Source: Pseudacidovorax intermedius
Lineage (GTDB): Bacteria > Pseudomonadota > Gammaproteobacteria > Burkholderiales > Burkholderiaceae_C
NCBI RefSeq assembly: GCF_001476815.1
Contig: NZ_LDSL01000043.1
Location: forward strand, 1-53,793
Length of the DNA stretch: 53,793 nt
Direction: 5' to 3'
A model generated the notes under the pieces. It searched no databases. It saw only the letters and a list, made by a program, of their open reading frames with translations, and was not told the origin of the DNA. Below, piece by piece: positions 22,109 to 43,658 of the stretch. The stretch's first letter is position 1; every line of letters begins with the position of its first letter. Position numbers and translations under genes: made by a program.

Positions 22109-22137
22109 TTGACAACTAAAACAATCAAAAGTAATGT
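22109..22137 (+). promoter_or_regulatory. near-consensus sigma-70 promoter
   Basis: A perfect TTGACA (22109-22114), a 17-bp AT-rich spacer, and TAATGT (22132-22137, four of six matches to TATAAT). Transcription should start about 22145, some 40 bp before the opine-dehydrogenase-like gene, making this one of the clearest promoters in the window. Confidence 0.8.
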
Positions 22138-22187
22138 TTATGCGGCCTCGGCAGGACCCTCGTCCGCCAGCCACACCAGGAGCAGAC

Positions 22188-27069: not shown

Positions 27070-27098
27070 TTGTGAATAGATTCAGGTCTAAATAGAGT
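27070..27098 (+). promoter_or_regulatory. iad first-unit promoter with embedded MarR operator candidate
   Basis: TTGTGA (27070-27075), a 17-bp spacer and TAGAGT (27093-27098) form a plausible sigma-70 promoter. The spacer contains TTCAGGTCTAAA (27081-27092), which matches TTTAAGACTAAA upstream of the second half of the locus at 39706. AATAGA is repeated on either side of it. A repressor bound there would block RNA polymerase. An AGGAGA ribosome site (27143-27148) precedes the ATG at 27158. Confidence 0.6.
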
Positions 27099-27157
27099 TG
27101 TATCTTGCCACCCCACGATTGGAAGCGCCGTCAGCGTTTCCCAGGAGAGCAGTTCCC

Positions 27158-29329
27158 ATGGCCGAGCGTTCATTCGTCGAAGAAGTGAAGAAGCTGCGTC
27201 TTGCCGAAGGCGAGACCTTTCGCGGTGAGGGCATTCTGGCCGTCACCAAGGCCCTGCTGGAGTCGGGCGTGTCGTACGTCGCCGGCTACCAGGGCGCGCC
27301 CATCTCGCACCTGATGGACGTGCTGGCCGATGCGCAGGACATCCTGGCCGACCACGGCATCCGCTTCGAGAACAGCGCCAGCGAGGCCACGGCCGCCGCC
27401 ACGCTGGCCGCCTCGGTCAACTATCCGCTGCGCGGCGCCGTGACCTTCAAGGCCACGGTGGGCACCAACGTGGCGTCGGACGCGCTGGCCAACCTGGCCT
27501 CCGGCGGCGTCACCGGCGGTGCGCTCATCATCGTGGGCGAGGACTACGGCGAAGGCTCCTCCATCATGCAGGAGCGCAGCCATGCCTTCGCCATGAAGTC
27601 GCAGATGTGGATGCTCGATCCGCGGCCCAACCTGCCGAGCATCGTGCAGGCGGTGAAGACCGGCTTCGAACTGTCCGAGGCCAGCAACACGCCGGTGATG
27701 CTGCAGCTGCGCATCCGCGCCTGCCACGTGCACGGCCAGTTCACCGCCTCCGACAACCGCCGCGCCGCCTTCACGCTGAAGGAGGCCATGGAGAACCCGC
27801 AGCGCGACGTGAGCCGCATCGTGCTGCCGCCCGCGAGCTTTCTGCACGAGCAGGAGAAGATCAAGCAGCGCTGGCCGGCCGCCGTGCGCTTCATCGAGGA
27901 GCGCGGCCTCAACGAGTTCTTCGCCGAGGGCGCCGACGACATCGGCATCATCGTGCAGGGCGGTTGCTACAACACGCAGGTGCGGGCGCTGGAGCGCCTG
28001 GGCCTGGCCGACGTGTACGGCCGCTCCAGGGTGCCGCTGTACGTGATGAACGTGGCCTATCCCGTGATCGACAGCGAGGTGGTGCGCTTCTGCGAAGGCA
28101 AGCGCGCCGTGCTGGTGGTCGAAGAAGGCCAGCCCAACTTCGTCGAACAGAACATCGCCACCATCCTGCGCCAGGCCGGCAGCACGACCGCGCTGCATGG
28201 CAAGGACCTGCTGCCCGTGGCCGGCGAGTACACCGCCCAGGCCGTGATGGCCGGCACGCGTGCCTTCTGCGAGCGCTACGGCCGCCTGGCGCCCAAGGCC
28301 GCGCCGGCCGAGGTGGTGCCCGCCAAGCCGCGCAAGATCATCCCGCTGATCAGCGAGGCGCAGCTGATGCCGCTGGAGCGCAGCGTGCACGCGCGCCCGC
28401 CGGGCTTCTGCACCGGCTGCCCCGAGCGGCCCATCTTCAGTGCCATGAAGCTGGTGGAGCGCGAGCTGGGCCAGCACCATGTGTCGGCCGACATCGGCTG
28501 CCATCTGTTCTCCATCCTGCCGCCGTTCAACATCGGCAACACCACCATGGGCTATGGCCTGGGTGCGGCCGGTGCCGCGGCGCTCAACACCCAGGCCGAC
28601 AAGCGCGCCATCGCGGTGATGGGCGACGGCGGCTTCTGGCACAACGGCCTGACCAGCGGCATCGCCAATGCGGTGTTCAACCAGAGCGACAACCTCACGG
28701 TGGTGGTCGACAACAACTACACCTCGGCCACCGGCGGGCAGGACATCCTGTCCTCCAAGGCCGTCAACGCCACGCGCAGCACCGGCCACGAGATCGAGCA
28801 GGCGGTGCGCGGCGTGGGCGTGAAGTGGGTCAAGACCCTGCGGCGCACCTACGACGTGGCCGGCATGCGCGACACGCTCAAGGAGGCACTGACGACCAAG
28901 GACAAGGGCCCGAAGGTCATCATTGCCCAGTCCGAGTGCATGCTCAACCGCCAGCGCCGCGAGAAGCCGCTGGTGCGCAAGGCCATCGCCGACGGCAAGC
29001 GCATGGTGCGCGAGAAGTTCGGCGTCGACCCCGACACCTGCACCGGCGACCATTCCTGCATCCGCCTGTCGGGCTGCCCGTCGCTGTCGATCAAGCCCAA
29101 CCCCGATCCGCTGCGGCAGGAGCCCGTCGCCGCCGTGATGGACAGCTGCGTGGGCTGCGGCGTGTGCGGCGAGGTGTCGCATGCGGCCGTGCTCTGCCCC
29201 TCCTTCTACAAGGCCCAGGTGGTGAGCAACCCCACCGGCTGGGACCGGCTGCGCGAGCGCGTGCGCGGCGCCGTCATCGGCTGGATGCAGCGCCGCGACG
29301 CCGAGCGCCGCGCGCGCCTGGCCTTCTGA
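27158..29329 (+). CDS. indolepyruvate:ferredoxin oxidoreductase alpha-type subunit (IorA family) of the iad locus
   Basis: A 723-residue thiamine-diphosphate 2-oxoacid oxidoreductase subunit. The N-terminal pyrimidine-binding domain shows GYQGAPISHLMDVLADA; the C-terminal TPP domain shows MGDGGFWHNGLTSGIANAVFNQSDNLTVVVDNN (about 487-520). An iron-sulphur region follows (CTGDHSCIRLSGC about 627, CVGCGVCGEVSH about 664). Together with the next gene it should oxidatively decarboxylate an aryl 2-oxoacid to an acyl-CoA. In this locus I infer the substrate is isatinate (2-aminophenylglyoxylate), giving anthraniloyl-CoA; indolepyruvate is the textbook alternative. It is the first gene of the long operon. 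Confidence 0.88.
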   Translation: MAERSFVEEVKKLRLAEGETFRGEGILAVTKALLESGVSYVAGYQGAPISHLMDVLADAQDILADHGIRFENSASEATAAATLAASVNYPLRGAVTFKATVGTNVASDALANLASGGVTGGALIIVGEDYGEGSSIMQERSHAFAMKSQMWMLDPRPNLPSIVQAVKTGFELSEASNTPVMLQLRIRACHVHGQFTASDNRRAAFTLKEAMENPQRDVSRIVLPPASFLHEQEKIKQRWPAAVRFIEERGLNEFFAEGADDIGIIVQGGCYNTQVRALERLGLADVYGRSRVPLYVMNVAYPVIDSEVVRFCEGKRAVLVVEEGQPNFVEQNIATILRQAGSTTALHGKDLLPVAGEYTAQAVMAGTRAFCERYGRLAPKAAPAEVVPAKPRKIIPLISEAQLMPLERSVHARPPGFCTGCPERPIFSAMKLVERELGQHHVSADIGCHLFSILPPFNIGNTTMGYGLGAAGAAALNTQADKRAIAVMGDGGFWHNGLTSGIANAVFNQSDNLTVVVDNNYTSATGGQDILSSKAVNATRSTGHEIEQAVRGVGVKWVKTLRRTYDVAGMRDTLKEALTTKDKGPKVIIAQSECMLNRQRREKPLVRKAIADGKRMVREKFGVDPDTCTGDHSCIRLSGCPSLSIKPNPDPLRQEPVAAVMDSCVGCGVCGEVSHAAVLCPSFYKAQVVSNPTGWDRLRERVRGAVIGWMQRRDAERRARLAF

Positions 29330-29348: not shown

Positions 29349-30908
29349 ATGACGCAACAGCAACAACCCATCAAGATCGCCATCCTCGCCATGGGCGGCG
29401 AAGGCGGCGGCGTGCTGGCCGACTGGCTGGTGGACCTGGGCGAGGCCAACGGCTGGATCGCGCAGACGACCTCGGTGCCCGGCGTGGCCCAGCGCACCGG
29501 CGCCACCATCTACTACGTCGAGATGTACCCCGAGGCGCAGGCCCAGGCCGACGGCGGCCAGCCCGTGCTGGCGCTGATGCCGCTGCCCGGCGACGTGGAC
29601 GTGGTGCTGTGCTCCGAGTTGATGGAGGCTGGCCGCGCGGTTCAGCGCGGGCTGGTCACGCCGGACCGCACGACGTTGGTCGCCTCGACGCACCGCGTCT
29701 ATTCCATCGCCGAGAAAAGTGCCATGGGCGACGGCCGGGTCGACAGCGCGCAGCTGCTGGCCCATGCCGAGCAGGCCGCGCAGCGCTTCGTGCGCTTCGA
29801 CATGGCCGAGGCCGCGGCGCAGAACGGCAGCGTGATCAGCGCCGTGCTGTTCGGCGCGTTGGCGGGCACCGGCGTGCTGCCCTTTGAGCGCGCGCAGTTC
29901 GAGGCCACCATCGAGCGCGGCGGCGTGGGCGTCAAGCCCAGCCTGAAGGCCTTCGGTGCGGCATTCGTGCGCGCGCAGGCGGGCGAGGCGCCCGTCCAGG
30001 CCGAGCCGGTCGCGCCCGCCACGCCGCGTGCCACGTCGGCCGATCCGGCCATCCAGGCACTCCTGACGCGCCTGTACGCCGAGTTCCCGGTCCAGGCCCA
30101 GCCGCTGATGCTCGAAGGCCTGCGCCGCCTGGTCGACTACCAGGACGTGGCCTATGCCGCGCTCTACCTGGACCGCATGGCCGAGGTCTGCCGGCTTCCC
30201 GACGATGCGGCCCGCACGCTGGCCTGCGAGACGGCGCGCCACCTGGCGCTGTGGATGAGCTACGAGGACACGGCCCGCGTCGCGCAGCTCAAGACCCGCG
30301 CCAGCCGCTTCGCCCGCGTGAAGCAGGAGACGGGCGTCAACGCCGACCAGGTCATCGCCATCAACGAATACATGCACCCGGGCCTGCGCGAGATCTGCGA
30401 GACGCTGCCCGGCGGCCTGGGCCGCTGGCTCATGGGCTCGGGCGCGCCGCGCCGGCTGGTGGAGGGCATGACGCAGAAGGGCCGCGTGGTGCAGACCAGC
30501 TCGGTGCACGGCTTCCTGCTGCTGTCGGCCGTGGCCTTCGCCCGCCGCTGGCGGCGCAGCACCATCCGTTACTCGAAAGAGAACGGACGCATCGCGCAAT
30601 GGCTGCAGGGTCTTCGCGATGCAGCCGCAGCCTCGCCGGAACTCGCCGTCGAACTCGCCCGCTGCCAGAAGCTGGTGAAGGGCTACAGCGACACCCACGA
30701 GCGCGGCGTGCGCAACTACGACACCGTGATCGCCGCCTGGCGCCAGGCCGGCCCCGCGCTGGCGCCCGCCACGCTGCGCGCCTGGCGCGAGGCGGCGCTG
30801 GCCGACGAGCATGGCCATGCACTCAAGGCCGCACTCGCACAGCATGCGGCCTCCTACGCCGCCACCACGGCCACGCCGCTCGTGGCCGCCATGGCCGTGC
30901 CGGCCTGA
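29349..30908 (+). CDS. indolepyruvate oxidoreductase beta-type subunit (IorB family) with C-terminal extension
   Basis: A 519-residue partner of the IorA-type protein. The N-terminal 200 residues are the gamma/IorB domain (IKIAILAMGGEGGGVLADWLVDLGEA, GVAQRTGATIYYVEMYP). The remaining 300 residues are a helical extension of the type found in aerobic-type proteobacterial IorB proteins (DUF6537-like; KTRASRFARVKQETG and LARCQKLVKGYSDTHERG). It lies 19 bp downstream of IorA and 13 bp before the reductase gene. Its presence in an oxygenase operon indicates an oxygen-tolerant member; the electron acceptor is not encoded here. Confidence 0.87.
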   Translation: MTQQQQPIKIAILAMGGEGGGVLADWLVDLGEANGWIAQTTSVPGVAQRTGATIYYVEMYPEAQAQADGGQPVLALMPLPGDVDVVLCSELMEAGRAVQRGLVTPDRTTLVASTHRVYSIAEKSAMGDGRVDSAQLLAHAEQAAQRFVRFDMAEAAAQNGSVISAVLFGALAGTGVLPFERAQFEATIERGGVGVKPSLKAFGAAFVRAQAGEAPVQAEPVAPATPRATSADPAIQALLTRLYAEFPVQAQPLMLEGLRRLVDYQDVAYAALYLDRMAEVCRLPDDAARTLACETARHLALWMSYEDTARVAQLKTRASRFARVKQETGVNADQVIAINEYMHPGLREICETLPGGLGRWLMGSGAPRRLVEGMTQKGRVVQTSSVHGFLLLSAVAFARRWRRSTIRYSKENGRIAQWLQGLRDAAAASPELAVELARCQKLVKGYSDTHERGVRNYDTVIAAWRQAGPALAPATLRAWREAALADEHGHALKAALAQHAASYAATTATPLVAAMAVPA

Positions 30909-30921
30909 GGCAGAGGCGCGC

Positions 30922-31926
30922 ATGACCGCATCGCCCGCCATCGCGACCCTGCCGCTGCGCGTGGCCGAGGCCCGCACGCTCAACCCGCTGATCCGCCTGC
31001 TGCGCCTGGAACATGCCGAAGGCGCCGCGCTGCCCGGCTGGACGCCCGGCGCCCACATCCAGGTGCAGGTGCGCCTGCCCGACGGCCAGACCGACTGGCG
31101 CCACTATTCGCTGATCGACCTGGAAGGCGTGGCCAGCACCCCGGGCTTCGCACCCACGGCCTACACCGTCGCCGTGCGGCTGGAGGAGGGCGGCCGCGGC
31201 GGCTCGCGCTTCATGCACCAGGGCCTGCAGCCCGGCGACGCGATCACCGTGCAGCCGCCGCGCAACGACTTTCCCCTGGACGACAGCCCTGCCCGCGCCG
31301 TGCTGCTGGCGGGTGGCATCGGCATCACGCCGCTGGCCAGCATGGCTGCACGCTGCCGAGCCCAGGGCCGCCCCGTCGCGCTGCACTACGCCGGCCGCAG
31401 CCGCACGCTCCTGGCCTTCGCCGACGAGCTTCAGGCGCTGCTGGGGGAGGGCCTGCGCCTGCATGCCGACGACGAGGCGGGTGGCGCCGGCTTCGACATC
31501 GGCGCGCTGCTGGATGGCATGGCCGCCGACGAGCCGCTCTACGTCTGCGGTCCCAAGCCGCTGCTCGACGCCGTGCTGGCCGCCACGCAGGCCCGCGGCT
31601 GGGCCCCGGGCCGCGTGCACTTCGAGCTGTTCAGCGCACCGGTGGTGGAAGCGGGCGACCAGCCCTTCGAGGTCGAATTGGCGCAATCGGGCCAGCGCTT
31701 CACCGTGCCCGCCGACCAGACCCTGCTGGACTGCATGATCGAACACGGCTGCGACCCGCTGTACGACTGCAAGCGCGGCGAATGCGGCGTGTGCGCCGTG
31801 CCGGTGATCGAGGGCGAGATCGACCACCGCGACTACGTGCTGTCGCAGGCCGAGAAGGACGGCGGCCAGGTGATGCAGATCTGCATTTCCCGCGCCAGGG
31901 GCCCGCGCCTGGTGATCGACCTGTAG
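30922..31926 (+). CDS. iadC: IadC, phthalate-dioxygenase-reductase-type electron transfer protein
   Basis: A 334-residue reductase with the domain order of the phthalate dioxygenase reductase/VanB family. A flavin domain (DWRHYSLIDLEG; this wording suits FMN) is followed by an NAD domain (LLAGGIGITPLASMA, YVCGPKPLLDAVL) and a C-terminal plant-type [2Fe-2S] domain (CKRGECGVC, about 283, with a later Cys in QICIS). It carries electrons from NAD(P)H to the Rieske centre of IadD. In Variovorax the iadC product is reported as an FMN-type reductase needed for IAA conversion. It is probably shared with the second Rieske pair, which has no reductase of its own. Confidence 0.9.
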   Translation: MTASPAIATLPLRVAEARTLNPLIRLLRLEHAEGAALPGWTPGAHIQVQVRLPDGQTDWRHYSLIDLEGVASTPGFAPTAYTVAVRLEEGGRGGSRFMHQGLQPGDAITVQPPRNDFPLDDSPARAVLLAGGIGITPLASMAARCRAQGRPVALHYAGRSRTLLAFADELQALLGEGLRLHADDEAGGAGFDIGALLDGMAADEPLYVCGPKPLLDAVLAATQARGWAPGRVHFELFSAPVVEAGDQPFEVELAQSGQRFTVPADQTLLDCMIEHGCDPLYDCKRGECGVCAVPVIEGEIDHRDYVLSQAEKDGGQVMQICISRARGPRLVIDL

Positions 31927-31954: not shown

Positions 31955-33274
31955 ATGACACGCTACCGAGACAACCCCGACGCCATCCGCGCCCTGGTGC
32001 AGCCGCAACAGGTGCACCGCGACCTCTACATCAGCCCCGAGCTCTTCGAACTGGAGCAGGAGCACTTCTTCGCCAACACTTGGAACTACGCCGGCCACGA
32101 CAGCCAGGTGCCCAAGCCCGGCGACTACATCACCGTCGACATCGCCGGGCGGCCGCTGATCGTGGTGCGCCACACCGACGGCACGGTCAAGGTGCTCATG
32201 AACCGCTGCGCCCACAAGGGCTCGCGCGTGGTCAACGGCGCCTGCGGCAACACGGGCAAGTTCTTCCGCTGCCCCTACCACGCCTGGACCTTCAAGACCG
32301 ACGGCGCGCCGCTGGCCATTCCGCTCAAGAACGGCTACGAGGGCACGGCGCTGAAGGACTGCGACGCGGCCAAGGGCCTGGTGCCCGTGCGGCATGTGCG
32401 GCTCTACCGCGGCTTCATCTTCGTCAAGCTCAACGACGTGGGGCAGGACTTCGAGGAGTACTTCGGCGATTCGCTGTCCTCCATCGACAACATGGCCGAC
32501 CGCTCGCCCGAGGGCGAACTGGAGGTGGCCGGCGGCTGCCTGCGCTTCATGCACCAGTGCAACTGGAAGATGTTCGTCGAGAACCTCAACGACACCATGC
32601 ATCCCATGGTGGCGCACGAGTCCTCGGCCGGCACCGCCAAGGCCATGTGGGCCGGCCAGCCGGCCGATGCGCCCAAGCCGATGGCCATCGAGCAGTTCGT
32701 GCCCTTCATGTCCGACTACCAGTTCTTCGACGGCATGGGCGTGCGGGTGTACGACAACGGCCACAGCTTCTCGGGCGTGCACTTCAGCATCCACAGCAAG
32801 TATTCGGGCATCCCTGGCTACGAGGAGGCGATGAAGGCGCGCTACGGCGACGAGCGCACGGCGCAGATCCTGGGCATGGCGCGGCACAACACCGTGTACT
32901 ACCCCAACCTCACGATCAAGGGTGCCATCCAGGCCATCCGCGTGGCGCGGCCCATCGCGGTGGACCGCACGCTGGTGGAGAGCTGGACCTTCCGCCTCAA
33001 GGGCGCGCCCGACGAGCTGCTGCAGCGCACCACCACCTACAGCCGGCTCATCAACTCGCCCTTCTCGGTGGTCGGCCATGACGACCTGCAGGCCTACCGC
33101 GGCATCCAGGCCGGCCTGCATGCCAGCGGCAACGACTGGGTCAGCCTGCACCGCAACTACGACGAGCACGAAGGCCGCGAGCCGGAAGAGACCAGCAACG
33201 GCACCAACGAGCTGCCCATGCGCAACCAGTACCGGTCGTGGCTCAAGCACATGACGCTGACGATGGAGGCATGA
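31955..33274 (+). CDS. iadD: IadD, Rieske oxygenase alpha subunit for indole-3-acetate
   Basis: A 439-residue aromatic-ring-hydroxylating oxygenase large subunit. The Rieske [2Fe-2S] ligands are C85-x-H87 (NRCAHKG) and C106-x2-H109 (RCPYHAW). The mononuclear iron motif is N-L-N-D213-T-M-H216-P-M-V-A-H221, with Asp213 bridging to the neighbouring subunit's Rieske centre. Position directly after the reductase and before the small subunit matches the iadC-iadD-iadE order described in Variovorax, where the enzyme converts IAA to 2-oxindole-3-acetate. The start at 31955 follows AAAAAAGG. It has a paralogue at 42342 in the same locus. Confidence 0.92.
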   Translation: MTRYRDNPDAIRALVQPQQVHRDLYISPELFELEQEHFFANTWNYAGHDSQVPKPGDYITVDIAGRPLIVVRHTDGTVKVLMNRCAHKGSRVVNGACGNTGKFFRCPYHAWTFKTDGAPLAIPLKNGYEGTALKDCDAAKGLVPVRHVRLYRGFIFVKLNDVGQDFEEYFGDSLSSIDNMADRSPEGELEVAGGCLRFMHQCNWKMFVENLNDTMHPMVAHESSAGTAKAMWAGQPADAPKPMAIEQFVPFMSDYQFFDGMGVRVYDNGHSFSGVHFSIHSKYSGIPGYEEAMKARYGDERTAQILGMARHNTVYYPNLTIKGAIQAIRVARPIAVDRTLVESWTFRLKGAPDELLQRTTTYSRLINSPFSVVGHDDLQAYRGIQAGLHASGNDWVSLHRNYDEHEGREPEETSNGTNELPMRNQYRSWLKHMTLTMEA

Positions 33275-33774
33275 CCATGGCAGATCTCACGCCCGCCACC
33301 GTCACCCGCGAGCAGCTCGTCGACTTCGTCCTGCACGAGGCCCGGCTGCTGGACGAGAAGCGCTTCGACGAATGGAATGCGCTCTTCACCGACGACGCCA
33401 TCTACTGGGTGCCGCTCACGCCCGGCCAGCCCGACGGCCTGAGCCACACCTCGCACCTGTACGAGGACAAGCTGCTGCGCGACCTGCGCATCGAGCGCTT
33501 CAAGAGCCCGCGCGCCTTCTCGCAGCAGCCGCCCAGCCGCTGCCAGCATGTGCTGCAGCTGCCCGGTCTGGAGTCGCGTGACGAGGCCGCCAACCGCTTC
33601 GTGATGCGCACGCCCTTCCACTACAGCGAGGCGCAGGCGGACGAGATGCTCTTCCTCACCGGCGTGGCCTGGCACCACCTGTGCGTGGAGGGGGGCGCGC
33701 TGCGCATGACGCTCAAGCGCGTGGACCTGATCAACAGCGATGCCGCGCTGCCGGCGGTGCAGCTCTTTCTCTGA
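33271..33774 (+). CDS. iadE: IadE, Rieske oxygenase beta subunit
   Basis: A 167-residue small subunit with the NTF2-like fold of ring-hydroxylating dioxygenase beta subunits (VDFVLHEARLLDEKRFDEWNALFTDDAIYWVPL, then SPRAFSQQPPSRCQHVLQ). It has a structural role in the alpha3beta3 oxygenase. The ATG at 33271 overlaps the alpha-subunit stop (ATGA), giving coupled 1:1 synthesis; a second ATG two codons later (33277) is also possible. Confidence 0.92.
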   Translation: MTMADLTPATVTREQLVDFVLHEARLLDEKRFDEWNALFTDDAIYWVPLTPGQPDGLSHTSHLYEDKLLRDLRIERFKSPRAFSQQPPSRCQHVLQLPGLESRDEAANRFVMRTPFHYSEAQADEMLFLTGVAWHHLCVEGGALRMTLKRVDLINSDAALPAVQLFL

Positions 33775-33787
33775 AGTGAACTCCGGC

Positions 33788-35416
33788 ATGGACCACCGCA
33801 CCATCCACGACGCCTTCACGGCCAGCGCCGCGCGCACGCCGCAGGCGGACTTTCTTTTCACCGAGCCGGTGACGGCCGAGGTCTACGGCATCACGCCCGG
33901 CGCGACCGCCTGGGCCGAGGCCGCCGCCGAGGTCGAGCGCCTGCGCCTCGCCTATGCCCAGGCCGGCTGGGGCCATGGCCACCGGGTCGGGCTGCTGCTG
34001 GAGAACCGGCCCGCCTTCCTCTACCACTGGTTCGCGCTCAATGCCCTGGGCGTGAGCGTGGTGCCCATCAATGCCGAGATGCGCTCGGCCGAGCTGGCCT
34101 ACCTGATCGGCCACAGCGAGATCGGCCTGGCCGTCACGCTGCCGCAGCGCGCCGCCGACCTGCAGGCCGCCGCGGCCCAGGCCGGCCGGACGCTGCACAC
34201 CATGACGGCCGACGCCACGGACGTGCCCGCACCCACAGAGCCCGCACCCCGCGCCAACGAAGTCGTCGGCCCCGGCAGCGAATGCGCGCTGCTCTACACC
34301 TCGGGCACCACCGGCCGGCCCAAGGGCTGCATGCTGAGCAATGCCTACTTCCTGCGGGCGGGCGAGTGGTACGCGGGCCTGGACGGCGTATGCGCCTTCC
34401 GCCGCGACCAGGAGCGGCTGATGACGCCGCTGCCGCTGAACCACGTCAATGCGATGGCCTTCTCGACCATGGTGGTGTTGGTGGCCGGCGGCTGCCTGGT
34501 GCAGCTGGACCGCTTCCATCCCCGCAGCTGGCTGCAGAGTGCGCGCGACAGCGGCGCCACCATCGTCCACTACCTGGGCGTGATGCCCGCCATGCTGCTC
34601 GCCGCCGCCGAGGCACCGGCCGACCGCGACCATGCCATCCGCTGGGCCTTCGGCGCCGGCGTGGACCGCAAGAACCACGCGCCCTTCGAGGCCCGCTTCG
34701 GCTTTCCGCTGGTGGAGGCCTGGGCCATGACCGAGACTGGCGCGGCCGCTTGCATCATGGCAAACCACGAGCCGCGCCAAGTGGGCACCAGCTGCTTCGG
34801 CCGGGCCGAGGATTTCGTCGAAGTGCGCCTGGTCGACGATGAGGGCCAGGACGTGCCCGCCGGCATGCCGGGCGAACTGCTGGTGCGTTCCAGCGGCGAC
34901 GATCCGCGGCGCCATTTCTTCGGCGGCTACCTGAAGGACCCGACCGCCACCGACGAAGCCTGGCAAGGCGGCTGGTTCCACACGGGCGACATGGTGCGCC
35001 GCGACGAGGCGGGCCACCTCTACTTCGTGGACCGCAAGAAGAACGTCCTCCGCCGCAGCGGCGAGAACATCTCGGCGGTGGAGGTGGAAAGCGTGCTCAA
35101 CCAGCATCCGGCCGTGAAGGTCTCGGCCGTGGCGGCCGCGCCCGACGCGGTGCGCGGCGACGAGGTGCTGGCCTGCATCGTCATCGATCCCGATGCCGCG
35201 GCCGAGCCGGGCGAGGCGCTGGCCGCCGACATCGTGCGCCATGCGCTGGCCCAGCTGGCCTATTACAAGGCGCCGGGCCACGTGGCCTTCGTCGATGCGC
35301 TGCCGCTCACCGCCTCGCAGAAGATCCAGCGCGGCGAACTGCGGCAGATGGCGCAGGCGCTGCCCGGCAGCAAGGGCTGTTTCGACACCCGCGCCATGAA
35401 GAAGAGGCAGGACTGA
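33788..35416 (+). CDS. AMP-forming acyl/aryl-CoA ligase (first of the locus)
   Basis: A 542-residue ANL-superfamily enzyme that adenylates a carboxylate and forms its CoA thioester. The P-loop is [16 protein letters not shown], the A5 motif EAWAMTETGAA, the hinge region GWFHTGDMVRRDEAGHLYFVDRKKN, and the A10 lysine ALPLTASQKIQRGEL. The start at 33788 follows the beta subunit by 13 bp. The likely substrate is the oxygenated product of IAA (2-oxindole- or dioxindole-3-acetate). Its stop overlaps the start of the thiolase-like gene, tying CoA activation to the next step. Confidence 0.88.
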   Translation: MDHRTIHDAFTASAARTPQADFLFTEPVTAEVYGITPGATAWAEAAAEVERLRLAYAQAGWGHGHRVGLLLENRPAFLYHWFALNALGVSVVPINAEMRSAELAYLIGHSEIGLAVTLPQRAADLQAAAAQAGRTLHTMTADATDVPAPTEPAPRANEVVGPGSECALLYTSGTTGRPKGCMLSNAYFLRAGEWYAGLDGVCAFRRDQERLMTPLPLNHVNAMAFSTMVVLVAGGCLVQLDRFHPRSWLQSARDSGATIVHYLGVMPAMLLAAAEAPADRDHAIRWAFGAGVDRKNHAPFEARFGFPLVEAWAMTETGAAACIMANHEPRQVGTSCFGRAEDFVEVRLVDDEGQDVPAGMPGELLVRSSGDDPRRHFFGGYLKDPTATDEAWQGGWFHTGDMVRRDEAGHLYFVDRKKNVLRRSGENISAVEVESVLNQHPAVKVSAVAAAPDAVRGDEVLACIVIDPDAAAEPGEALAADIVRHALAQLAYYKAPGHVAFVDALPLTASQKIQRGELRQMAQALPGSKGCFDTRAMKKRQD

Positions 35417-36591
35417 TGGGCCGGCGACAACGCAGCAACTACGAGGGTGTGGCCGTGGCCGTGCCCGTCACCGTGCCCTACCAGCGCTATTCCACCGAGG
35501 GCGCGCACTGGTTCCTGGGCAAGGCGGTGCGCGCGCTGGTGGAGGCCAGCGGCATTGCCAAGGACGACATCGACGGCCTGTGTCTTTCCAGCTTCTCGCT
35601 GGCGCCCGACACGGCCGTCGGCGTGACGCAGCACCTGGGCCTGTCGCCGCGCTGGCTGGACCATGTGCCCACCGGCGGTGCATCGGGCGTGATGTGCCTG
35701 CGCCGCGCCGCGCGCGCCGTGCAGAGCGGCGACGCCGAGGTGGTGGCCTGCGTGGCGGCCGACACCAACCACGTCGACTCCTTCCGCCAGACGCTGGGCG
35801 CCTTCAGTCACTTCGCGCGCGATGCGACCTATCCCTACGGCTCGGGCGGGCCCAACTCCATCTTCGCGATGATCACGGCGCACTACATGCGCCAGTTCGG
35901 TGCCCGGCGGGAGGACTTCGGCCGCATCTGCGTGGCCCAGCGGCAGAACGCGCTGCTCAATCCCAACGCCATGTTCAAGAAGGCGCTGACGCTGGAGGAG
36001 TACATGGCAGCGCGGCCCATTTCCGACCCGCTGCACCTGTTCGACTGCGTCATGCCCTGCGCCGGCGCCGAGGCCTTTCTGGTGATGACGGCCGAGCGTG
36101 CCCGCGACCTGGGCCTGCCCTATGCCACGCTGCGCGGCGGCATCGAGCGCCACAACGCCTTCGCCGACGACCCGATCATGGTGCGGGGCGGCTGGGCCCG
36201 CGATCGCGACGACCTGTATGCGCAGGCCGGCGTGCAGCCGAAGGACATCGACTTCATCCAGACCTACGACGACTATCCCGTCATCGTGATGATGCATTTC
36301 GAGGACCTGGGCTTCTGCGAGAAGGGCGAGGGCGCCGCCTTCGTGCAGTCGCACACGCTCACGCACGACGGCAGCTTTCCCAACAACACCAGTGGCGGCC
36401 AGCTCTCGGCCGGCCAGGCGGGCGCCGCCGGCGGCTTCCTCGGCATGACCGAGACGCTGCGCCAGCTCACCGGCCAGGCCGGCCCGCGCACCGTGCCTGA
36501 TGCGCAACTGGGCCTGGTGGCCGGCTTCGGCATGGTCACCTACGACCGCTGCCTGTGCACCGGCGCCGTGATCCTCGGGAGGCAGGAATGA
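35416..36591 (+). CDS. thiolase-like protein lacking catalytic Cys and His (SCP2/Ltp-type)
   Basis: A 391-residue thiolase-fold protein of the SCP2-thiolase/Ltp branch. Where thiolases have the nucleophile in C-A-S-G this protein has G-A-S-G (Gly88). Where they have GHPxGATG it has AGQAGAAGG (Gln334). The C-terminal CxG (Cys381-T-G) is kept, as is the branch motif DDYPVIVMMHFEDLGFCEKGEGAAFV around residues 285-310. Relatives paired with DUF35 partners include steroid side-chain retro-aldolases (Ltp2) and the benzylsuccinate-pathway BbsAB. I infer retro-aldol cleavage of a tertiary 3-hydroxyacyl-CoA, here dioxindole-3-acetyl-CoA to isatin plus acetyl-CoA. Its DUF35 partner is the next gene. 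Confidence 0.87.
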   Translation: MGRRQRSNYEGVAVAVPVTVPYQRYSTEGAHWFLGKAVRALVEASGIAKDDIDGLCLSSFSLAPDTAVGVTQHLGLSPRWLDHVPTGGASGVMCLRRAARAVQSGDAEVVACVAADTNHVDSFRQTLGAFSHFARDATYPYGSGGPNSIFAMITAHYMRQFGARREDFGRICVAQRQNALLNPNAMFKKALTLEEYMAARPISDPLHLFDCVMPCAGAEAFLVMTAERARDLGLPYATLRGGIERHNAFADDPIMVRGGWARDRDDLYAQAGVQPKDIDFIQTYDDYPVIVMMHFEDLGFCEKGEGAAFVQSHTLTHDGSFPNNTSGGQLSAGQAGAAGGFLGMTETLRQLTGQAGPRTVPDAQLGLVAGFGMVTYDRCLCTGAVILGRQE

Positions 36592-36615
36592 CGTTTTTCC
36601 ATTTCAGGACCCTCG

Positions 36616-36735
36616 CTCCCTCTCCCCTCGCGGGAGAGGGCTGGGGAGAGGGGGCTGCAACGGCCGCAAGGCACGAGGGCGCCTCCGTGCCGTGCACCCC
36701 CTCTCCCCAACCCCTCTCCCACGAGGGGAGAGGGG
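36616..36735. repeat. REP/BIME-like long inverted repeat inside the operon
   Basis: Two 39-nt arms (36616-36654 and 36697-36735) are near-perfect reverse complements of each other, and each holds its own small hairpin (for example CTCTCCC-ctcgc-GGGAGAG). They are made of alternating CCCTCTCCCC and GGGGAGAGGG words, the style of REP/BIME elements widespread in proteobacteria. The 196-bp gap 36592-36787 splits an otherwise tightly packed operon between the thiolase-like and DUF35-SDR genes and holds no gene. Confidence 0.8.
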
Positions 36736-36787
36736 CTCGCGCCCGAATTCCGGGCGGGACGTTCAACTTCCACCTCGGGGCCGCACG

Positions 36788-38041
36788 ATGACCATGCCGC
36801 TCATGCGCCCCAAGCGCAAGAACCCCGTCCTGCGCACCCGCCAGATGAACCTGCCGCCCTGGGCGCGCGGGCGCGAGGCGCTGGGCATCACCGCCGCCGC
36901 AGCCGAAGGCCGCTTCGAGCTGCAGGTGTGCGAGGAATGCGGCACCGTGCAGTACCCGCCGCGCGGCGCCTGCAAGCAATGCCTGTCCACCGACCTGCGC
37001 TGGCGACTCCAGACCGGCGAGGGCGAACTGCTCAGCGCCACCACGCTGCACCACAGCAACGACCTGTTCTTCCGCGAGCGCCTGCCGTGGCGGCTGGGCA
37101 TGGTCAAGCTGGACAGCGGCCCCTCCCTCATGGTCCACCTGCATGGCGAGGTGGGCGAGGCACCGCAGCGCGTGCGCGTGGGTGCCCGGCTCGACCGCGC
37201 CGGACAGGCGGTACTGATCGGATTCCCTTTCGAAGGAAGCACACACATGGCCGACGACCCGATGCTGCGCGAGATGACCAGCGATCCCAAGTTCCGCAAG
37301 GTGCTGGTGACGGACGGCAAGACGCCCACCGGCCAGGCCCTGGTGCGCGCCCTGGTCAAGGCCGGCGCCGACATCGTCTGGGTGGGCCATGCCGAGCCGT
37401 GGAAGCAGCTCGGCGGCCTGGAGGACATCCGCGCGCTGCCGCAGGTGACGCTGGTGCCGCTGGACCTGACCAACGGCCGCGCCGTCACCGAGCTGGCCGG
37501 CGAGATCGGCGGCAAGGTGGACATCGTCATCAACAACGCCGAGGTGCACCGCACCTTCGGCATCGGCGCGCGGCGCGGCACCGACGTGGCGAAGCTGGAG
37601 ATGGACATCAACTACTTCGGCCTGCTGCGCCTGGCGCAGGAATTCGGCCCGGCGCTCAAGGGCCGTTCGGCCGATGGCGCGACCGGGGCCACGGCCTGGG
37701 TCAACCTGCTGTCGATCTACGCGCTGTCCAATTTTCCGCCGCACGGCACCTTCAGCGCCAGCAAGGCCGCGGCCCATTCGCTGGCGCAGTGCCTGCGCGC
37801 CGAGATGCGGCCGGCCGGCATCCGCGTCATCAACGTCTTCCCCGGCCCCATCGACGACGAATGGAACCAGCACATGCCGCCGCCGAAGCTCGGCCCCGAC
37901 GCGCTGGCCAGTGCCATCGTGAAGGCGCTGCGCGACGGCGTGGAGGACGTCTACCCCGGCGACGTGGCGCAGGAATGGCTGCAGCGGTGGCGCGACAACC
38001 CCAAGGTGCTCGAACGCGAGCTGGCAACGAATGGCGGCTGA
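36788..38041 (+). CDS. DUF35 (Zn-ribbon/OB) - SDR fusion protein
   Basis: A 417-residue two-domain protein. Residues about 15-150 are a DUF35/ChsH2-type domain: Zn-ribbon Cys48, Cys51, Cys62 and Cys65, followed by an OB-fold (ELLSATTLHHSNDLFF...RLGMVKLDSG). Residues about 170-410 are a short-chain dehydrogenase fold, but degenerate: the Gly-rich motif reads TDGKTPTG, NNAG reads NNAE (249-252), and the catalytic Tyr of YxxxK is Phe322 (TFSASK, Lys326 kept). DUF35 proteins are obligate partners of Ltp/Bbs-type thiolases; benzylsuccinate BbsCD also uses one inactive SDR subunit. The SDR half is therefore probably structural or a regulatory partner for a true SDR in the locus. Confidence 0.87.
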   Translation: MTMPLMRPKRKNPVLRTRQMNLPPWARGREALGITAAAAEGRFELQVCEECGTVQYPPRGACKQCLSTDLRWRLQTGEGELLSATTLHHSNDLFFRERLPWRLGMVKLDSGPSLMVHLHGEVGEAPQRVRVGARLDRAGQAVLIGFPFEGSTHMADDPMLREMTSDPKFRKVLVTDGKTPTGQALVRALVKAGADIVWVGHAEPWKQLGGLEDIRALPQVTLVPLDLTNGRAVTELAGEIGGKVDIVINNAEVHRTFGIGARRGTDVAKLEMDINYFGLLRLAQEFGPALKGRSADGATGATAWVNLLSIYALSNFPPHGTFSASKAAAHSLAQCLRAEMRPAGIRVINVFPGPIDDEWNQHMPPPKLGPDALASAIVKALRDGVEDVYPGDVAQEWLQRWRDNPKVLERELATNGG

Positions 38042-38063
38042 GGCCACCGGCAAGGAGACACCG

Positions 38064-38885
38064 ATGAGCAATGCAACCCTGACCCCCACTGCCGCGCCCA
38101 CCGGCCTCGACGCTCTGGCCGGCCTGGTCGGCGCGCTGGCCACCGGCCGCATTCGCGTGGTCGACCTGACGCAGACGCTGACGCCCGACTTCCCGCAGAT
38201 CGCGCTGCCGCCCGAGATGGGCCAGTGCTGGCCGTTCCGCATCGAAGAGGTCTCACGCTACGACGAGCGCGGCCCGGGCTGGTACTGGAACAACTTCTCC
38301 TGCGGCGAGCACACGGGCACGCACTTCGATGCGCCGATCCACTGGATCTCGGGCCGCGACCTGCCCAACAACGCGGTGGACACCATCCCCGTGCAGAACT
38401 TCGTGGCGCCGGCCTGCGTGATCGACTGCTCGCCCCAGGTCAAGGACGATCCGGACTACCTGCTCACGCTGGACGACATCGCCGAATGGGAGGCCGCGCA
38501 TGGCCGCATCCCCAAGGGCGCGTGGGTGCTGATGCGCACCGACTGGTCCAAGCGCACCGACCCGGCCGAATACCAGAACTTCGACGAGACCGGCCAGCAC
38601 ACGCCGGGCCCGAGCACGGCCGCAGTGCGCTTCCTGGTGGAAGAGCGCGACGTGCTGGGCTTCGGCTCCGAAGCCATCGGCACCGACGCCGGCCAGGGCT
38701 ACCACCTGCGCCCGCCGTATCCCTGCCACTACTACATGCACGGGGCCGGCCGCTACGGCCTGCAGTGCCTGTGCAACCTGGACCTGCTGCCGCCGGCCGG
38801 CGCGGTGCTGATCTGCCCGCCGCTGAAGATCGAGAAGGGCAGCGGCAGCCCGCTGCGCGTGCTGGCGCTGGTGGGGTCGGCATGA
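38064..38885 (+). CDS. cyclase-family metal hydrolase, isatin-hydrolase-like
   Basis: A 273-residue member of the cyclase/kynurenine-formamidase-like family. The metal-binding signature HxGTHxDxPxH is complete: His83, His87, Asp89 and His93 (HTGTHFDAPIHW). Isatin hydrolase, which opens isatin to isatinate in IAA breakdown, belongs to this family, as do kynurenine formamidases. In the proposed pathway it would open isatin released by the thiolase-like/DUF35 complex. The ATG at 38064 has AAGGAG upstream (38052-38057). Its stop overlaps the next start (ATGA). Confidence 0.86.
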   Translation: MSNATLTPTAAPTGLDALAGLVGALATGRIRVVDLTQTLTPDFPQIALPPEMGQCWPFRIEEVSRYDERGPGWYWNNFSCGEHTGTHFDAPIHWISGRDLPNNAVDTIPVQNFVAPACVIDCSPQVKDDPDYLLTLDDIAEWEAAHGRIPKGAWVLMRTDWSKRTDPAEYQNFDETGQHTPGPSTAAVRFLVEERDVLGFGSEAIGTDAGQGYHLRPPYPCHYYMHGAGRYGLQCLCNLDLLPPAGAVLICPPLKIEKGSGSPLRVLALVGSA

Positions 38886-39619
38886 GCACGACGCAGGACC
38901 GCGGCGTCGCCGTCGTCACCGGCGGCAGCGCCGGCATCGGCAAGGCCATCTGCCAGGACCTGCTGGAGGGCGGCTGGGAGGTGGTGAGCCTCGCGCGACG
39001 GCCCGCGGACATCGCGCATGCGCGCCTGCACAGCATGGAGGTGGACCTGAGCGACCGCGCCGCCACGACCCAGGCCGTGGCCGAAGTCGCGTCGCGCTGG
39101 CAGGTGACCACCGTGGTCCACAACGCCGGCGTGATCCGCGCCGCCTTGCTGCCGCAGGTGCAGCTGACGGATTTGGACGCGCTGGTGGACTTGCACCTGG
39201 GCTGCGCCGTGCAGCTGGTGCAGGCCGCACTGCCGGCCATGCGCGCCGCGGGTTACGGCCGCGTGGTGCTGCTGTCGTCGCGCGCGGCCCTGGGCCTGGC
39301 CACGCGCACCAGCTATTCGGCCACCAAGGCCGGCATGCTGGGCATGGCGCGCACCTGGGCGCTGGAACTGGGCGGCGAGGGCATCACCGTCAACGTGGTG
39401 GCGCCCGGGCCGATCCGCACCGACATGTTCTACGACGTGGTCGATGCCGGCAGCGAGAAGGAAAGGGCACTTGCCGCCAGCGTGCCCGTCAGGCGCCTGG
39501 GCGAAGCCGCCGATGTGGCACGGGCCGTGCGTTTCTTCGTGGAGCCGGCCAACAGCTTCGTGACGGGCCAGGTGCTCTACGTGTGCGGAGGCACCAGCGT
39601 GGGGAGCCTGACGCTGTAG
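38882..39619 (+). CDS. short-chain dehydrogenase/reductase
   Basis: A 245-residue classical SDR with an intact cofactor motif (VTGGSAGIGKAI), NAG, catalytic Ser (LLSSRAAL) and YSATK. NAD(P)-dependent oxidation or reduction of a hydroxyl/keto group is expected. It may work with the inactive SDR half of the DUF35 fusion two genes upstream. It is the last gene of the first transcription unit of the locus; a 207-bp gap follows. Confidence 0.88.
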   Translation: MSTTQDRGVAVVTGGSAGIGKAICQDLLEGGWEVVSLARRPADIAHARLHSMEVDLSDRAATTQAVAEVASRWQVTTVVHNAGVIRAALLPQVQLTDLDALVDLHLGCAVQLVQAALPAMRAAGYGRVVLLSSRAALGLATRTSYSATKAGMLGMARTWALELGGEGITVNVVAPGPIRTDMFYDVVDAGSEKERALAASVPVRRLGEAADVARAVRFFVEPANSFVTGQVLYVCGGTSVGSLTL

Positions 39620-39717: not shown

Positions 39718-39826
39718 TAATTGATAAGTCATGTGCCAGTGCGGCAGCCGCAGGAGTGTGGAAGAGGCGGCCCGTCGACACCGGCGTTGTTCCACCGTGT
39801 TGCCACCGAATCAGATGGAGTTCGCG

Positions 39827-41002
39827 ATGAAGATGATGACGTCCCTACGTCCCCTGCGCAGCCTGGCTGCCCTGGCCTGTGCCACGCTGCTGGGCGCCGC
39901 GGCGCCCGCTGCACTGGCCGCCGACTACAAGGTCGGCTTCATCACCTCGCTGTCGGGCCCCGTCTCGTCGCTGGGCATTCCCTACCAGAAGGGCATGGCC
40001 GCGGCGCAGGCCTTCAAGGCCGACATCGACGGCAAGAAGGTGCAGGTCATCCAGCTCGACGATGCCTCGGACCCGAGCACCGCCGCACGCAACGCGCGCA
40101 AGCTGATCGACGAGGACAAGGTCGACGTCATCATCGGCACGGCCGGCTCGCCGGGCGCGCTGGCCATCGCAGCCGTGGCGCGCGAGACCAAGACGCCGCT
40201 GATCTCCATCGCCAACGCCAACCTGGCGGGCGAGGAGGGCGCCTGGATGGTCACGCTGCCCCAGCCCGCGCCGCTGATGGTCAGTGCGGTGGTCGAGCGC
40301 ATGAAGAAGTCGGGCGTCAAGACGGTGGGCTACATCGGCTTCTCCGACGCCTGGGGCGACCTGGTGTACGACGCGCTGCAGAAGAGCGCCGAGCCGGCCG
40401 GCATCAAGGTGGTCTCCAACGAGCGCTATGCGCGCGCCGATTCGTCGGTGACGGGCCAGGTGCTCAAGATCGTCGCGCTGCGGCCCGACGCGGTGCTCAC
40501 CGGCACCTCGGGCACGCCGGGTGCGCTGCCCTACCTGGCGCTGGCCGAGCGTGGCTACAAGGGCCAGATCTACGGCATGCATGCGCTGATCAACCCCGAC
40601 TTCGTGCGCGTGGGCGGCGCCTCGGTCGAAGGCCTGCTGGCGCCCACCGGGCCGGTGATCGTGGCCGAGCAGCTGCCGGCCGACAACCCGATCCGCAAGG
40701 TGTCGATGGACTTCCGCAGCGCCTACCAGAAGGCCAACGGCGCCATGCCCACCGACGCCTTCTCGGCCTACAGCTTCGATGCCTGGCTGATCTTCCTGGA
40801 TGCCGCCAAGCGCGCCTCGGCCAAGGCCGAACCGGGCACGCCGCAGTTCCGCGTGGCGCTGCGCGATGCCATCACCAGCACGAAGGAGCTGGTCGGCACG
40901 CACAGCGTCTACAACTTCACGCCCAACGACCGCTACGGCTCGGACGAGCGCTCGCGCGTGGTGGTGCGGCTCGAAAAGGGCCAATGGAAGCTGGTGCCCT
41001 GA
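39827..41002 (+). CDS. branched-chain-type (LivK) ABC substrate-binding protein 1
   Basis: A 391-residue periplasmic binding protein of the Leu/Ile/Val-type (Peripla_BP_6). The signal peptide ends AALA-ADYKVG; the mature start KVGFITSLSGPVSSLGIPYQKGM and the VIGTAGSPGALAIAAVARE core are typical. GATGGAG precedes the ATG at 39827. Variovorax iad loci carry several such proteins (IadK series); IadK2 is reported to bind IAA specifically. This is the first of three paralogues, all ending in a conserved GQWKL[VA]P-type tail. Which one binds IAA cannot be read from sequence alone. Confidence 0.9.
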   Translation: MKMMTSLRPLRSLAALACATLLGAAAPAALAADYKVGFITSLSGPVSSLGIPYQKGMAAAQAFKADIDGKKVQVIQLDDASDPSTAARNARKLIDEDKVDVIIGTAGSPGALAIAAVARETKTPLISIANANLAGEEGAWMVTLPQPAPLMVSAVVERMKKSGVKTVGYIGFSDAWGDLVYDALQKSAEPAGIKVVSNERYARADSSVTGQVLKIVALRPDAVLTGTSGTPGALPYLALAERGYKGQIYGMHALINPDFVRVGGASVEGLLAPTGPVIVAEQLPADNPIRKVSMDFRSAYQKANGAMPTDAFSAYSFDAWLIFLDAAKRASAKAEPGTPQFRVALRDAITSTKELVGTHSVYNFTPNDRYGSDERSRVVVRLEKGQWKLVP

Positions 41003-42341: not shown

Positions 42342-43658
42342 ATGAACACCCGCTACCGCGATGACCCCGCCGCCATCCAGGCCCTGGTGCAGGACCGGCG
42401 CGTGCACCGCGACCTGTACCTGAGCCAGGAACTCTTCGCGCTGGAGCAGGAGCGCTTCTTCGCCCGCACCTGGCAGTTCGCGGGCCACGCGAGCGAGGTG
42501 CCCGCGGCGGGCGACTACTGCACGCGCGAGATCGCCGGCCGGCCGCTCCTGATGGTGCGGCAGGCCGACGGCGGCGTGGGCGTCTTCTACAACCGCTGCG
42601 CCCACAAGGGCGCGCAGCTGGTGACCGAGGAACACGGCAACACCGGCCGCTTCTTCCGCTGCCCCTACCACGCGTGGACCTACAAGCTGGACGGTGCGCC
42701 GCTGGCCCTGCCGCTCAAGGCCGGCTACGAGGGCACCGGCCTGGCGCAGTGCGAGTCGGGCCAGGGGCTGCAGCCGGTGGCCGGCGTGGCCACGTACCGC
42801 GACTTCGTCTTCGTGCGCCTGGCCAAGGACGGGCCGGCCTTCGAGGACTACTTCGGCGGCATCCTGCAGGTGATCGACAACATGGTCGACCGCTCGTCCG
42901 AGCGGCGGCTGACGGTGGCCGGCGGCGTGCTGCGCAACGTCATCCACTGCAACTGGAAGATGTACCTGGAGAACATCAACGACACGGTGCATCCCATGTC
43001 CACCCACGAGTCGGCCACGCAGGCGGCCGGCGCGCTGTGGAAGGACCAGCCGGCCGATGCGCCCAAGCCCATGGCCATGGAGCAGATCCTGCCCTTCGGC
43101 TCGGGCTACGACTTCTTCGACCGCATGGGCGGGCGCGTGTACCCCAACGGCCACAGCGTGCTGGGCACGCGCTTCAGCATCCATTCCAGCTACGCGCAGC
43201 TGCAGGACTACGAGGACGCGCTGCGCAGCGCCCTGGGCGAGGAGCGCGCCAACGACGTGCTGCAGCGCTCGCCGCAGAACGCGGTGCTCTTTCCCAGCCT
43301 GTCGCTCAAGGGCTCGCCGCAGGCCATCCGCGTGATCCGGCCGCTGGCGGCCGACCGCACGCTGGTGGAGGCCTGGAGCTTCCGCGCCGAGGGCGCGCCC
43401 GATCTGCTGCTGCAGCGGTCGATGAACTACAACCGCCTGGTCTTCTCGCCCATGTCGGTGGTGGCCCATGACGACGTGCACCTGTTCGAGAGCATGCAGC
43501 AGGGGCTGCGCGGCGAGGGCAACGAATGGGTCAGCCTGCATCGCGGCTTCTCGGAAGGCGAACGCAGCGACGTCGTGGAAGAGACCAGCGGCACCGACGA
43601 GCGCCTCCTGCGCAACCAGTTCCGCGCCTGGGCGAAGTGGATGGGGGCGGGCGCATGA
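42342..43658 (+). CDS. second Rieske oxygenase alpha subunit of the locus
   Basis: A 438-residue large subunit, paralogue of IadD along its whole length (both begin TRYRD-P-AI-ALVQ and share the KDQPADAPKPMA segment style). Rieske ligands are C86-x-H88 and C107-x2-H110; the iron site is N-I-N-D214-T-V-H217-P-M-S-T-H222. No reductase gene accompanies it, so IadC probably serves both. I infer it either hydroxylates 2-oxindole-3-acetate at C3 to the dioxindole or handles another auxin. Start at 42342 is 39 bp after SBP2. Confidence 0.9.
   Translation: MNTRYRDDPAAIQALVQDRRVHRDLYLSQELFALEQERFFARTWQFAGHASEVPAAGDYCTREIAGRPLLMVRQADGGVGVFYNRCAHKGAQLVTEEHGNTGRFFRCPYHAWTYKLDGAPLALPLKAGYEGTGLAQCESGQGLQPVAGVATYRDFVFVRLAKDGPAFEDYFGGILQVIDNMVDRSSERRLTVAGGVLRNVIHCNWKMYLENINDTVHPMSTHESATQAAGALWKDQPADAPKPMAMEQILPFGSGYDFFDRMGGRVYPNGHSVLGTRFSIHSSYAQLQDYEDALRSALGEERANDVLQRSPQNAVLFPSLSLKGSPQAIRVIRPLAADRTLVEAWSFRAEGAPDLLLQRSMNYNRLVFSPMSVVAHDDVHLFESMQQGLRGEGNEWVSLHRGFSEGERSDVVEETSGTDERLLRNQFRAWAKWMGAGA

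Follow-up and report, generated by a model that had tools for sequence, protein, structure and literature searches.

Excess auxin is cleared by Variovorax and other, related root bacteria through the iad locus (PMC12633357), and IorA/IadA and IorB/IadB have been named as exclusive markers of such loci (PMC9613470). Deletion mutants reported in an October 2025 preprint show that anthranilate formation depends on CDE, F, G, H, I and J; C10H9NO4, taken as dioxindole-3-acetate, accumulates on deletion of F, G, H or I, and C8H7NO2 accumulates without IadI (PMC12633357). By annotation, the same preprint assigns IadG as a ketothiolase and IadH as an alcohol dehydrogenase, which together with IadF would remove the acetyl group reductively, and it states itself that the middle steps of the pathway were inferred from annotation (PMC12633357). 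Here we describe a locus with the same kinds and order of genes as that of Variovorax paradoxus CL014 (PMC12633357, PMC9613470) in a stretch of 53,793 nucleotides (nt) from Pseudacidovorax intermedius (GCF_001476815.1, contig NZ_LDSL01000043.1, positions 1-53,793, forward strand), called the window below. The iad gene names were assigned by position, with named Variovorax loci as comparators. IadG and IadH of this locus most likely form a CoA-dependent retro-aldolase that splits dioxindole-3-acetyl-CoA into isatin and acetyl-CoA with no use of NAD(P)H. This cleavage had been proposed in a preliminary description of the window, and we favour it because sequence, fold, phylogeny, gene order and chemistry all agree; the activity itself is a prediction.

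The closest described enzymes are thiolase-fold aldolases with a DUF35 partner. Among these, the steroid aldolase Ltp2-ChsH2 acts on a C17 hydroxyl, a tertiary alcohol. Retro-aldolase activity is proven for Sal of Comamonas testosteroni (PDB 9MYR), which forms a complex with the DUF35 domain Shy; its proposed base is Tyr302, its proposed acid Cys304, and Gly89 takes the position of the thiolase nucleophilic Cys. Gln347 and Gln352 may support Cys304, and activity was reported as undetectable for the C304A, C304S and C304H variants (PMC12329534).

IadG and the thiolase-fold aldolases

The open reading frame (ORF) at 35416-36591 (plus strand), iadG, encodes a protein of 391 amino acids (aa) with a Pfam Thiolase_C_1 match (E 1.6e-36). 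Its AF2 model displayed a thiolase fold (pLDDT 80.7, pTM 0.86), and its best NCBIfam matches, 'acetyl-CoA acetyltransferase' and 'lipid-transfer protein', were below cut-off. The closest solved structure, both by sequence and by fold, was the Sal bile-acid retro-aldolase (9myr_A). An unrooted tree likewise placed IadG with Sal and apart from the thiolases that carry Cys and His (support 97/94).

Conservation was analysed in 80 named loci, the best 80 of 567 confirmed relatives and mostly Burkholderiales by title; counts over these loci describe close orthologs. Together with the window they gave 81 rows for IadG; the alignments of IadH, IadI and IadJ had 79, 77 and 71 rows, respectively. A second set of 33 loci (L055-L087) shares several genomes with the first and includes six loci (L066-L071; IadG 62-66%) that belong to a different class of the same phylum, probably Alphaproteobacteria.

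Alignment with relatives that carry Cys and His confirmed the earlier observation that Gly88 (35677-35679) stands in place of the nucleophilic Cys and Gln334 (36415-36417) in place of the His of the GHP motif. Gly88, Tyr284, Asp285, Asp286, Tyr287, Gln329 and Gln334 were each found in 81/81 IadG sequences and in 33/33 of the second set. Loss of the Cys alone is common, and we rejected it as proof by itself: many relatives carry GGS at this position and still retain the His. Nine PF22691 matches were detected in the genome, and the six strongest were aligned. IadG and C292:54920-56032 lack Cys and His, C100 and C292:39887 lack Cys and keep His, and two proteins on C228 have both. The alignments indicate that the hallmark of the IadG group is the loss of both Cys and His together with a Tyr in the YD motif.

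When IadG was mapped onto Sal, Gly88 corresponded to Gly89, and Tyr284, Asp285, Asp286 and Tyr287 (YDDY, 36265-36276) to Tyr302, Asp303, Cys304 and Tyr305, which makes Tyr284 the proposed base and Asp286 the proposed acid; Gln329 (36400-36402) and Gln334 corresponded to Gln347 and Gln352. IadG-IadH thus resembles Sal-Shy in its thiolase fold, its DUF35 partner, the Gly for Cys exchange, the YDxY motif with the base Tyr and both supporting Gln residues, and release of acetyl-CoA is expected. In contrast, the acid Cys304 of Sal is Asp286 in all 81 IadG sequences, its proposed oxyanion residue Gln161 is replaced by Pro146, the two proteins share 32.1% identical aa, and the expected product is a ketone (isatin) for IadG as opposed to an aldehyde for Sal-Shy. 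Ltp2-ChsH2 (PDB 6OK1) shares with IadG-IadH the thiolase fold, the base Tyr and a DUF35 partner with a four-Cys zinc site, and has a Pro at the oxyanion position, as IadG does. However, Ltp2 has YDHF and the acid Tyr344 where IadG has YDDY and Gln334, and in the tree it lies beyond the 97/94 branch from IadG, alone on a long branch. The preliminary description had pointed to an Ltp2/ChsH2-type complex; the general kind, a thiolase-fold/DUF35 aldolase, is supported, but the nearest known enzyme is Sal-Shy, published in 2025.

The known general acids, Cys304 of Sal and Tyr344 of Ltp2, are both absent from IadG, where Asp286 and Gln334 stand instead (81/81). Because the defining acid of each enzyme was looked for and a different residue was found, IadG should be named neither a Sal nor an Ltp2; by its sequence it appears to be an aldolase similar to Sal in which the acid, the partner fusion and the substrate class all differ. 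Asp is a reasonable acid/base at the alpha carbon of an acyl-CoA, as in citrate synthase, and Asp286 would be a chemically reasonable catalytic acid.

Domain structure of IadH

The next gene, iadH (36788-38041, plus strand), encodes one protein of ~417 residues, in which a DUF35 part, composed of a zinc ribbon and an OB fold, is followed by a short-chain dehydrogenase/reductase (SDR) domain. The DUF35 partner noticed earlier proved real (zf-ChsH2, E 3.4e-12; OB_ChsH2_C, E 4e-13), but its fusion with a degenerate SDR had been missed. On its Pfam domains and its gene neighbourhood, IadH is the proposed DUF35 partner of IadG. iadH lies directly 3' of iadG on the same strand in 78/80 named loci, with gaps of -13 to 212 bases; the remaining two loci run into contig ends, with 121 and 31 bases left.

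The likely start of iadH is 36788 rather than 36692, where the ORF opens: the alignments of most orthologs set in at the Met of 36788, and 36615-36741 is a dispersed repeat. This repeat, a long palindrome that separates iadG from iadH, was found at at least 39 further sites of the genome (40 of 818 candidates scored) and folds with a z of -8.8. Since the gap between iadG and iadH is only ~30 bases in the close relative L055, the repeat seems to have been inserted between the genes of the two subunits. A search of 36500-36900 for promoter-like or terminator-like sites found none.

The DUF35 part (36893-37195) forms the N-terminal third of IadH. Its four zinc Cys residues, in the canonical C-x2-C-x10-C-x2-C spacing, were present in 79/79 sequences, and a phmmer search with this part matched 6ok1_B and 9myr_B. 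The four-Cys site agrees with that reported for ChsH2, whereas C3H1 is reported for Shy; the DUF35 part is fused to an SDR in IadH and to a MaoC hydratase in Sal-Shy. The VIA list for IadH covered the SDR part and barely included the DUF35 part.

The C-terminal part has an SDR fold. In its degenerate SDR domain (37298-37870) Asp replaces the first Gly of TGxxxGxG, NNAE stands for NNAG and FSASK for YxxxK. The first cofactor Gly was Asp in 79/79 IadH sequences; of the 33 in the second set, 30 have Asp and three Asn at this position. NNAG ends in Glu or Asp instead of Gly in 79/79. At the position of the catalytic Tyr, 67 of the 79 sequences have Phe, ten Tyr and two Trp, and YxxxK is complete in nine. 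The other residues of the SDR site were largely retained (Ser 79/79, Asn 78/79, Lys 78/79). In the six loci of the other class the catalytic Lys is gone as well (6/6), and in the distant locus L245/L276 no SDR motif was left by eye, although the protein retains its DUF35 part and its C-terminal tail. IadJ, an SDR of the same operons, kept the three glycines in 71/71 sequences and the NAG, Tyr and Lys in 70/71 (one gap).

For comparison, 60 loci of this genome, each represented by one ORF and taken from 71 PF00106 matches, were crudely aligned; IadH and IadJ were left out, and one of the SDRs, L249, lies on this contig. All 60 of these control SDRs have the first Gly, 50 the NNAG Gly, 51 Tyr and Lys and 44 all five residues. 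Some of the misses are probably alignment noise, and only the first-Gly result is clear-cut. We therefore give the first Gly the most weight, since the control has it in 60/60. IadH as an alcohol dehydrogenase was judged unlikely, with the first cofactor Gly lost in 79/79 and the catalytic Tyr in 69; IadH is probably not a dehydrogenase, and NAD(P)-dependent catalysis appears unlikely. Because Ser, Asn and Lys are conserved in the close orthologs, we do not claim that the SDR pocket is functionless.

The predicted reaction and its alternatives

In dioxindole-3-acetate, C3 bears a hydroxyl, the ring and the side chain, so it cannot become the 3-keto group that a thiolase requires. Isatin (C8H5NO2) and acetic acid (C2H4O2) add up to C10H9NO4 without any change of redox state, and retro-aldol cleavage is the plain route to the release of acetyl-CoA. 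In the proposed mechanism IadF would make dioxindole-3-acetyl-CoA. From the mapping on Sal, Tyr284 of IadG would deprotonate the tertiary hydroxyl at C3, the bond from C3 to the CH2 of the side chain would break, and Asp286, aided by Gln329 and Gln334, would protonate the acetyl-CoA enolate, giving the two products with no requirement for NAD(P)H. The DUF35 part of IadH may pack on IadG and shape the pocket, as in Sal-Shy and Ltp2-ChsH2. The SDR part, its fold kept, would most likely serve as a scaffold or lid, because the first cofactor Gly is lost and the catalytic Tyr usually so. That deletions of G and H share a phenotype is consistent with both proteins being subunits of a single enzyme, and the increase in C10H9NO4 on deletion of iadI may reflect a reversible aldol step.

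The following gene, iadI (38031-38885, plus strand; start uncertain), would open isatin to isatinate. As noted earlier for an isatin-hydrolase-like gene at this place, its product matches isatin hydrolase A (5nnb_A, E 1.5e-112). Isatin hydrolases are defined by GLQC/GLAS, WXW and HxGTHFD motifs, with GLQC and the metal site named as a signature (PMC6117287); IadI shares the GLQC, WXW and metal motifs with isatin hydrolase A (PDB 5NNB, 5NMP). GLQC was found in 75/77 IadI sequences, WYW in 76/77 and HTGTHFD in 76/77, the remainder being gaps. iadI lies downstream of iadGH in 76/78 judgeable loci. It was not found within 8 kb of downstream sequence each at L143 and L152, where the few downstream ORFs tested included no other ring-opening enzyme, and iadI was likewise not detected in a third iad-type locus, L276 (G904:C13). 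Because the next gene carries the isatin hydrolase match and motifs, the sequences point to isatin as the product passed on by IadG-IadH.

The main rival accepts the retro-aldol cleavage by IadG but makes the SDR part of IadH an active reductase that converts isatin to dioxindole, the true product of IadFGH; this stands close to the published 'reductive removal', and we regard it as improbable. Some points weigh against a non-redox IadH. An active IadH reductase would explain the C8H7NO2 that builds up without IadI (PMC12633357) equally well; the SDR site keeps its Ser, Asn and Lys, and some IadH sequences carry the catalytic Tyr, nearly all of these with the Lys. In addition, losses in NNAG and YxxxK alone are weak signs, these being read as missing or incomplete in 10/60 and 9/60 control SDRs. 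On the other side, Asp or Asn replaces the first cofactor Gly throughout both sets, a Gly present in every control SDR and every IadJ; the Lys is lost in L066-L071, and L245 shows by eye no SDR motif; and IadI is similar to the isatin hydrolases, which are known to act on isatin. C8H7NO2, if dioxindole, is isatin plus 2 H, which other reductases of the cell, indeed any carbonyl reductase, could form when IadI is missing.

A still less probable order has the lactam opened first, so that IadG-IadH would cleave ring-opened (2-aminophenyl)malyl-CoA to isatinate and acetyl-CoA. The retro-aldol chemistry is the same, and deletion of iadI also raises C10H9NO4 (PMC12633357). However, the build-up of C8H7NO2 without IadI implies that loss of the acetyl group can precede the action of IadI (PMC12633357), and IadI bears the isatin hydrolase signature. 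That IadG is a genuine ketothiolase (EC 2.3.1.16) is very improbable and was rejected on residues, tree and substrate chemistry: in its favour are the thiolase fold, the sub-threshold 'acetyl-CoA acetyltransferase' match and the published annotation (PMC12633357), but Cys and His are absent in 81/81, IadG falls outside the Cys+His group, in line with the early view that normal thiolysis is unlikely, and the expected substrate has no 3-keto group.

The cleavage to isatin and acetyl-CoA by IadG-IadH accordingly remains the preferred reading, and the results argue against both published labels, ketothiolase for IadG and alcohol dehydrogenase for IadH. The preliminary description had considered the step undescribed. 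The locus and its gene requirements are in fact published, with the ketothiolase/alcohol-dehydrogenase assignment (PMC12633357), and the word DUF35 is absent from the main text of that preprint; a literature search of limited scope found no assignment of a retro-aldol step or a DUF35 aldolase in auxin or isatin metabolism.

Gene order, wider occurrence and significance

The window locus matches the iad auxin-degradation locus in its IorA/IorB-like iadA and iadB, its Rieske pair and the order of its downstream genes. It is of a known kind, and breakdown of indole-3-acetic acid (IAA) by this strain is predicted from the genes. All genes lie on the plus strand. iadA (27098-29329) encodes an IorA-like, thiamine pyrophosphate (TPP)-dependent 2-oxoacid (indolepyruvate) oxidoreductase alpha subunit (TIGR03336, E 4.7e-87, below cut-off; TPP_enzyme_C), and iadB (29349-30908) an IorB-like protein of the indolepyruvate oxidoreductase beta family (NF006179, 705.6 bits against a cut-off of 348). 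They are followed by iadC, a flavin/2Fe-2S reductase (30811-31926; Fer2, NAD_binding_1; start uncertain), iadD, a Rieske oxygenase alpha subunit (31955-33274; Rieske, Ring_hydroxyl_A), iadE, its beta subunit (33238-33774; Ring_hydroxyl_B), and iadF, an AMP-forming acyl-CoA ligase (33740-35416; AMP-binding, E 9.9e-56; start uncertain). Downstream of iadI lie iadJ, an SDR with intact motifs (38882-39619), and an iadK-type gene for a substrate-binding protein (39731-41002; Peripla_BP_6). Named Variovorax loci, e.g. L106 and L107, have the same gene set and order, with 89% identical IadH; the nearest named relatives among the matches listed are Xenophilus and Pseudacidovorax, with the window's own genome possibly left out. 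Oxygenase and ligase vary more across the 80 loci than iadG-iadH, as iadD was detected in 72/80 and an AMP ligase (at least 31% identity) in 78/80.

IadA and IadB resemble indolepyruvate oxidoreductase, and isatinate is itself a 2-oxo acid (2-aminophenylglyoxylate). As a lead only, IadA/IadB might convert isatinate to 2-aminobenzoyl-CoA; a nine-gene iadC-K2 region restored anthranilate formation without iadA/iadB (PMC12633357). A second Rieske alpha subunit is encoded at 42342-43658, downstream of the substrate-binding proteins, and no beta subunit for it was found among the neighbouring ORFs tested. Upstream of iadA (22134-24306) lie an octopine/nopaline-dehydrogenase-like gene and then a 3-hydroxyacyl-CoA dehydrogenase gene.

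Among the six loci of the other class, iadG, iadH and iadI occur together in L066-L070. L071 has Rieske genes; none were found at L066-L070 within the 14-20 kb stretches examined. A fused flavin monooxygenase/old-yellow-enzyme protein matched the salicylyl-CoA 5-hydroxylase model above cut-off in L070 and just below it in L066. This fusion is the architecture of 2-aminobenzoyl-CoA monooxygenase, and its presence would fit anthranilate as end product. L066, L067, L069 and L070 also carry an Asp/Glu-racemase-like gene near iadGHI. An iad-type locus (L171, IadG 69%) was found in Aromatoleum evansii KB740, which is described as an anaerobic IAA degrader (PMC9613470).

Two paralogs with YDDF (L090, L091) each have an enoyl-CoA hydratase gene on one side and a gene for a DUF35 protein on the other; a CoA ligase is encoded nearby and, at L091, also an aldehyde dehydrogenase, a setting as expected of a retro-aldolase. 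No such setting was seen among the neighbours tested of the YDD paralogs L088, L092 and L093. L088 is C292:54920-56032, the second YDDY thiolase-fold protein of the P. intermedius genome; it lies beside a CoA ligase, with a dienelactone-hydrolase/SnoaL fusion and an arylmalonate-decarboxylase-like gene nearby, and no DUF35 was found among the neighbouring ORFs tested. The chances seem about even that IadG-IadH is a third catalytic type of thiolase-fold CoA retro-aldolase (Tyr-Asp in YDDY, as against Tyr-Cys in Sal and Tyr-Tyr in Ltp2), with the dehydrogenase of the DUF35 protein kept in a non-redox, structural role, and that the wider YDD(Y/F) group consists of unrecognised aldolases acting on aromatic and other acids.

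Other strains have been equipped with the iad locus by engineering, and one such strain promoted the growth of plants in natural soil (PMC12633357). If the aldolase reading is true, the recorded function is wrong for two of nine genes, removal of the side chain requires no reductant and the on-path product is isatin rather than dioxindole. DUF35 aldolases would then extend from steroid to aromatic catabolism, with a different catalytic acid, and IadG-IadH would fill an unexplained step in the destruction of auxin by root bacteria.

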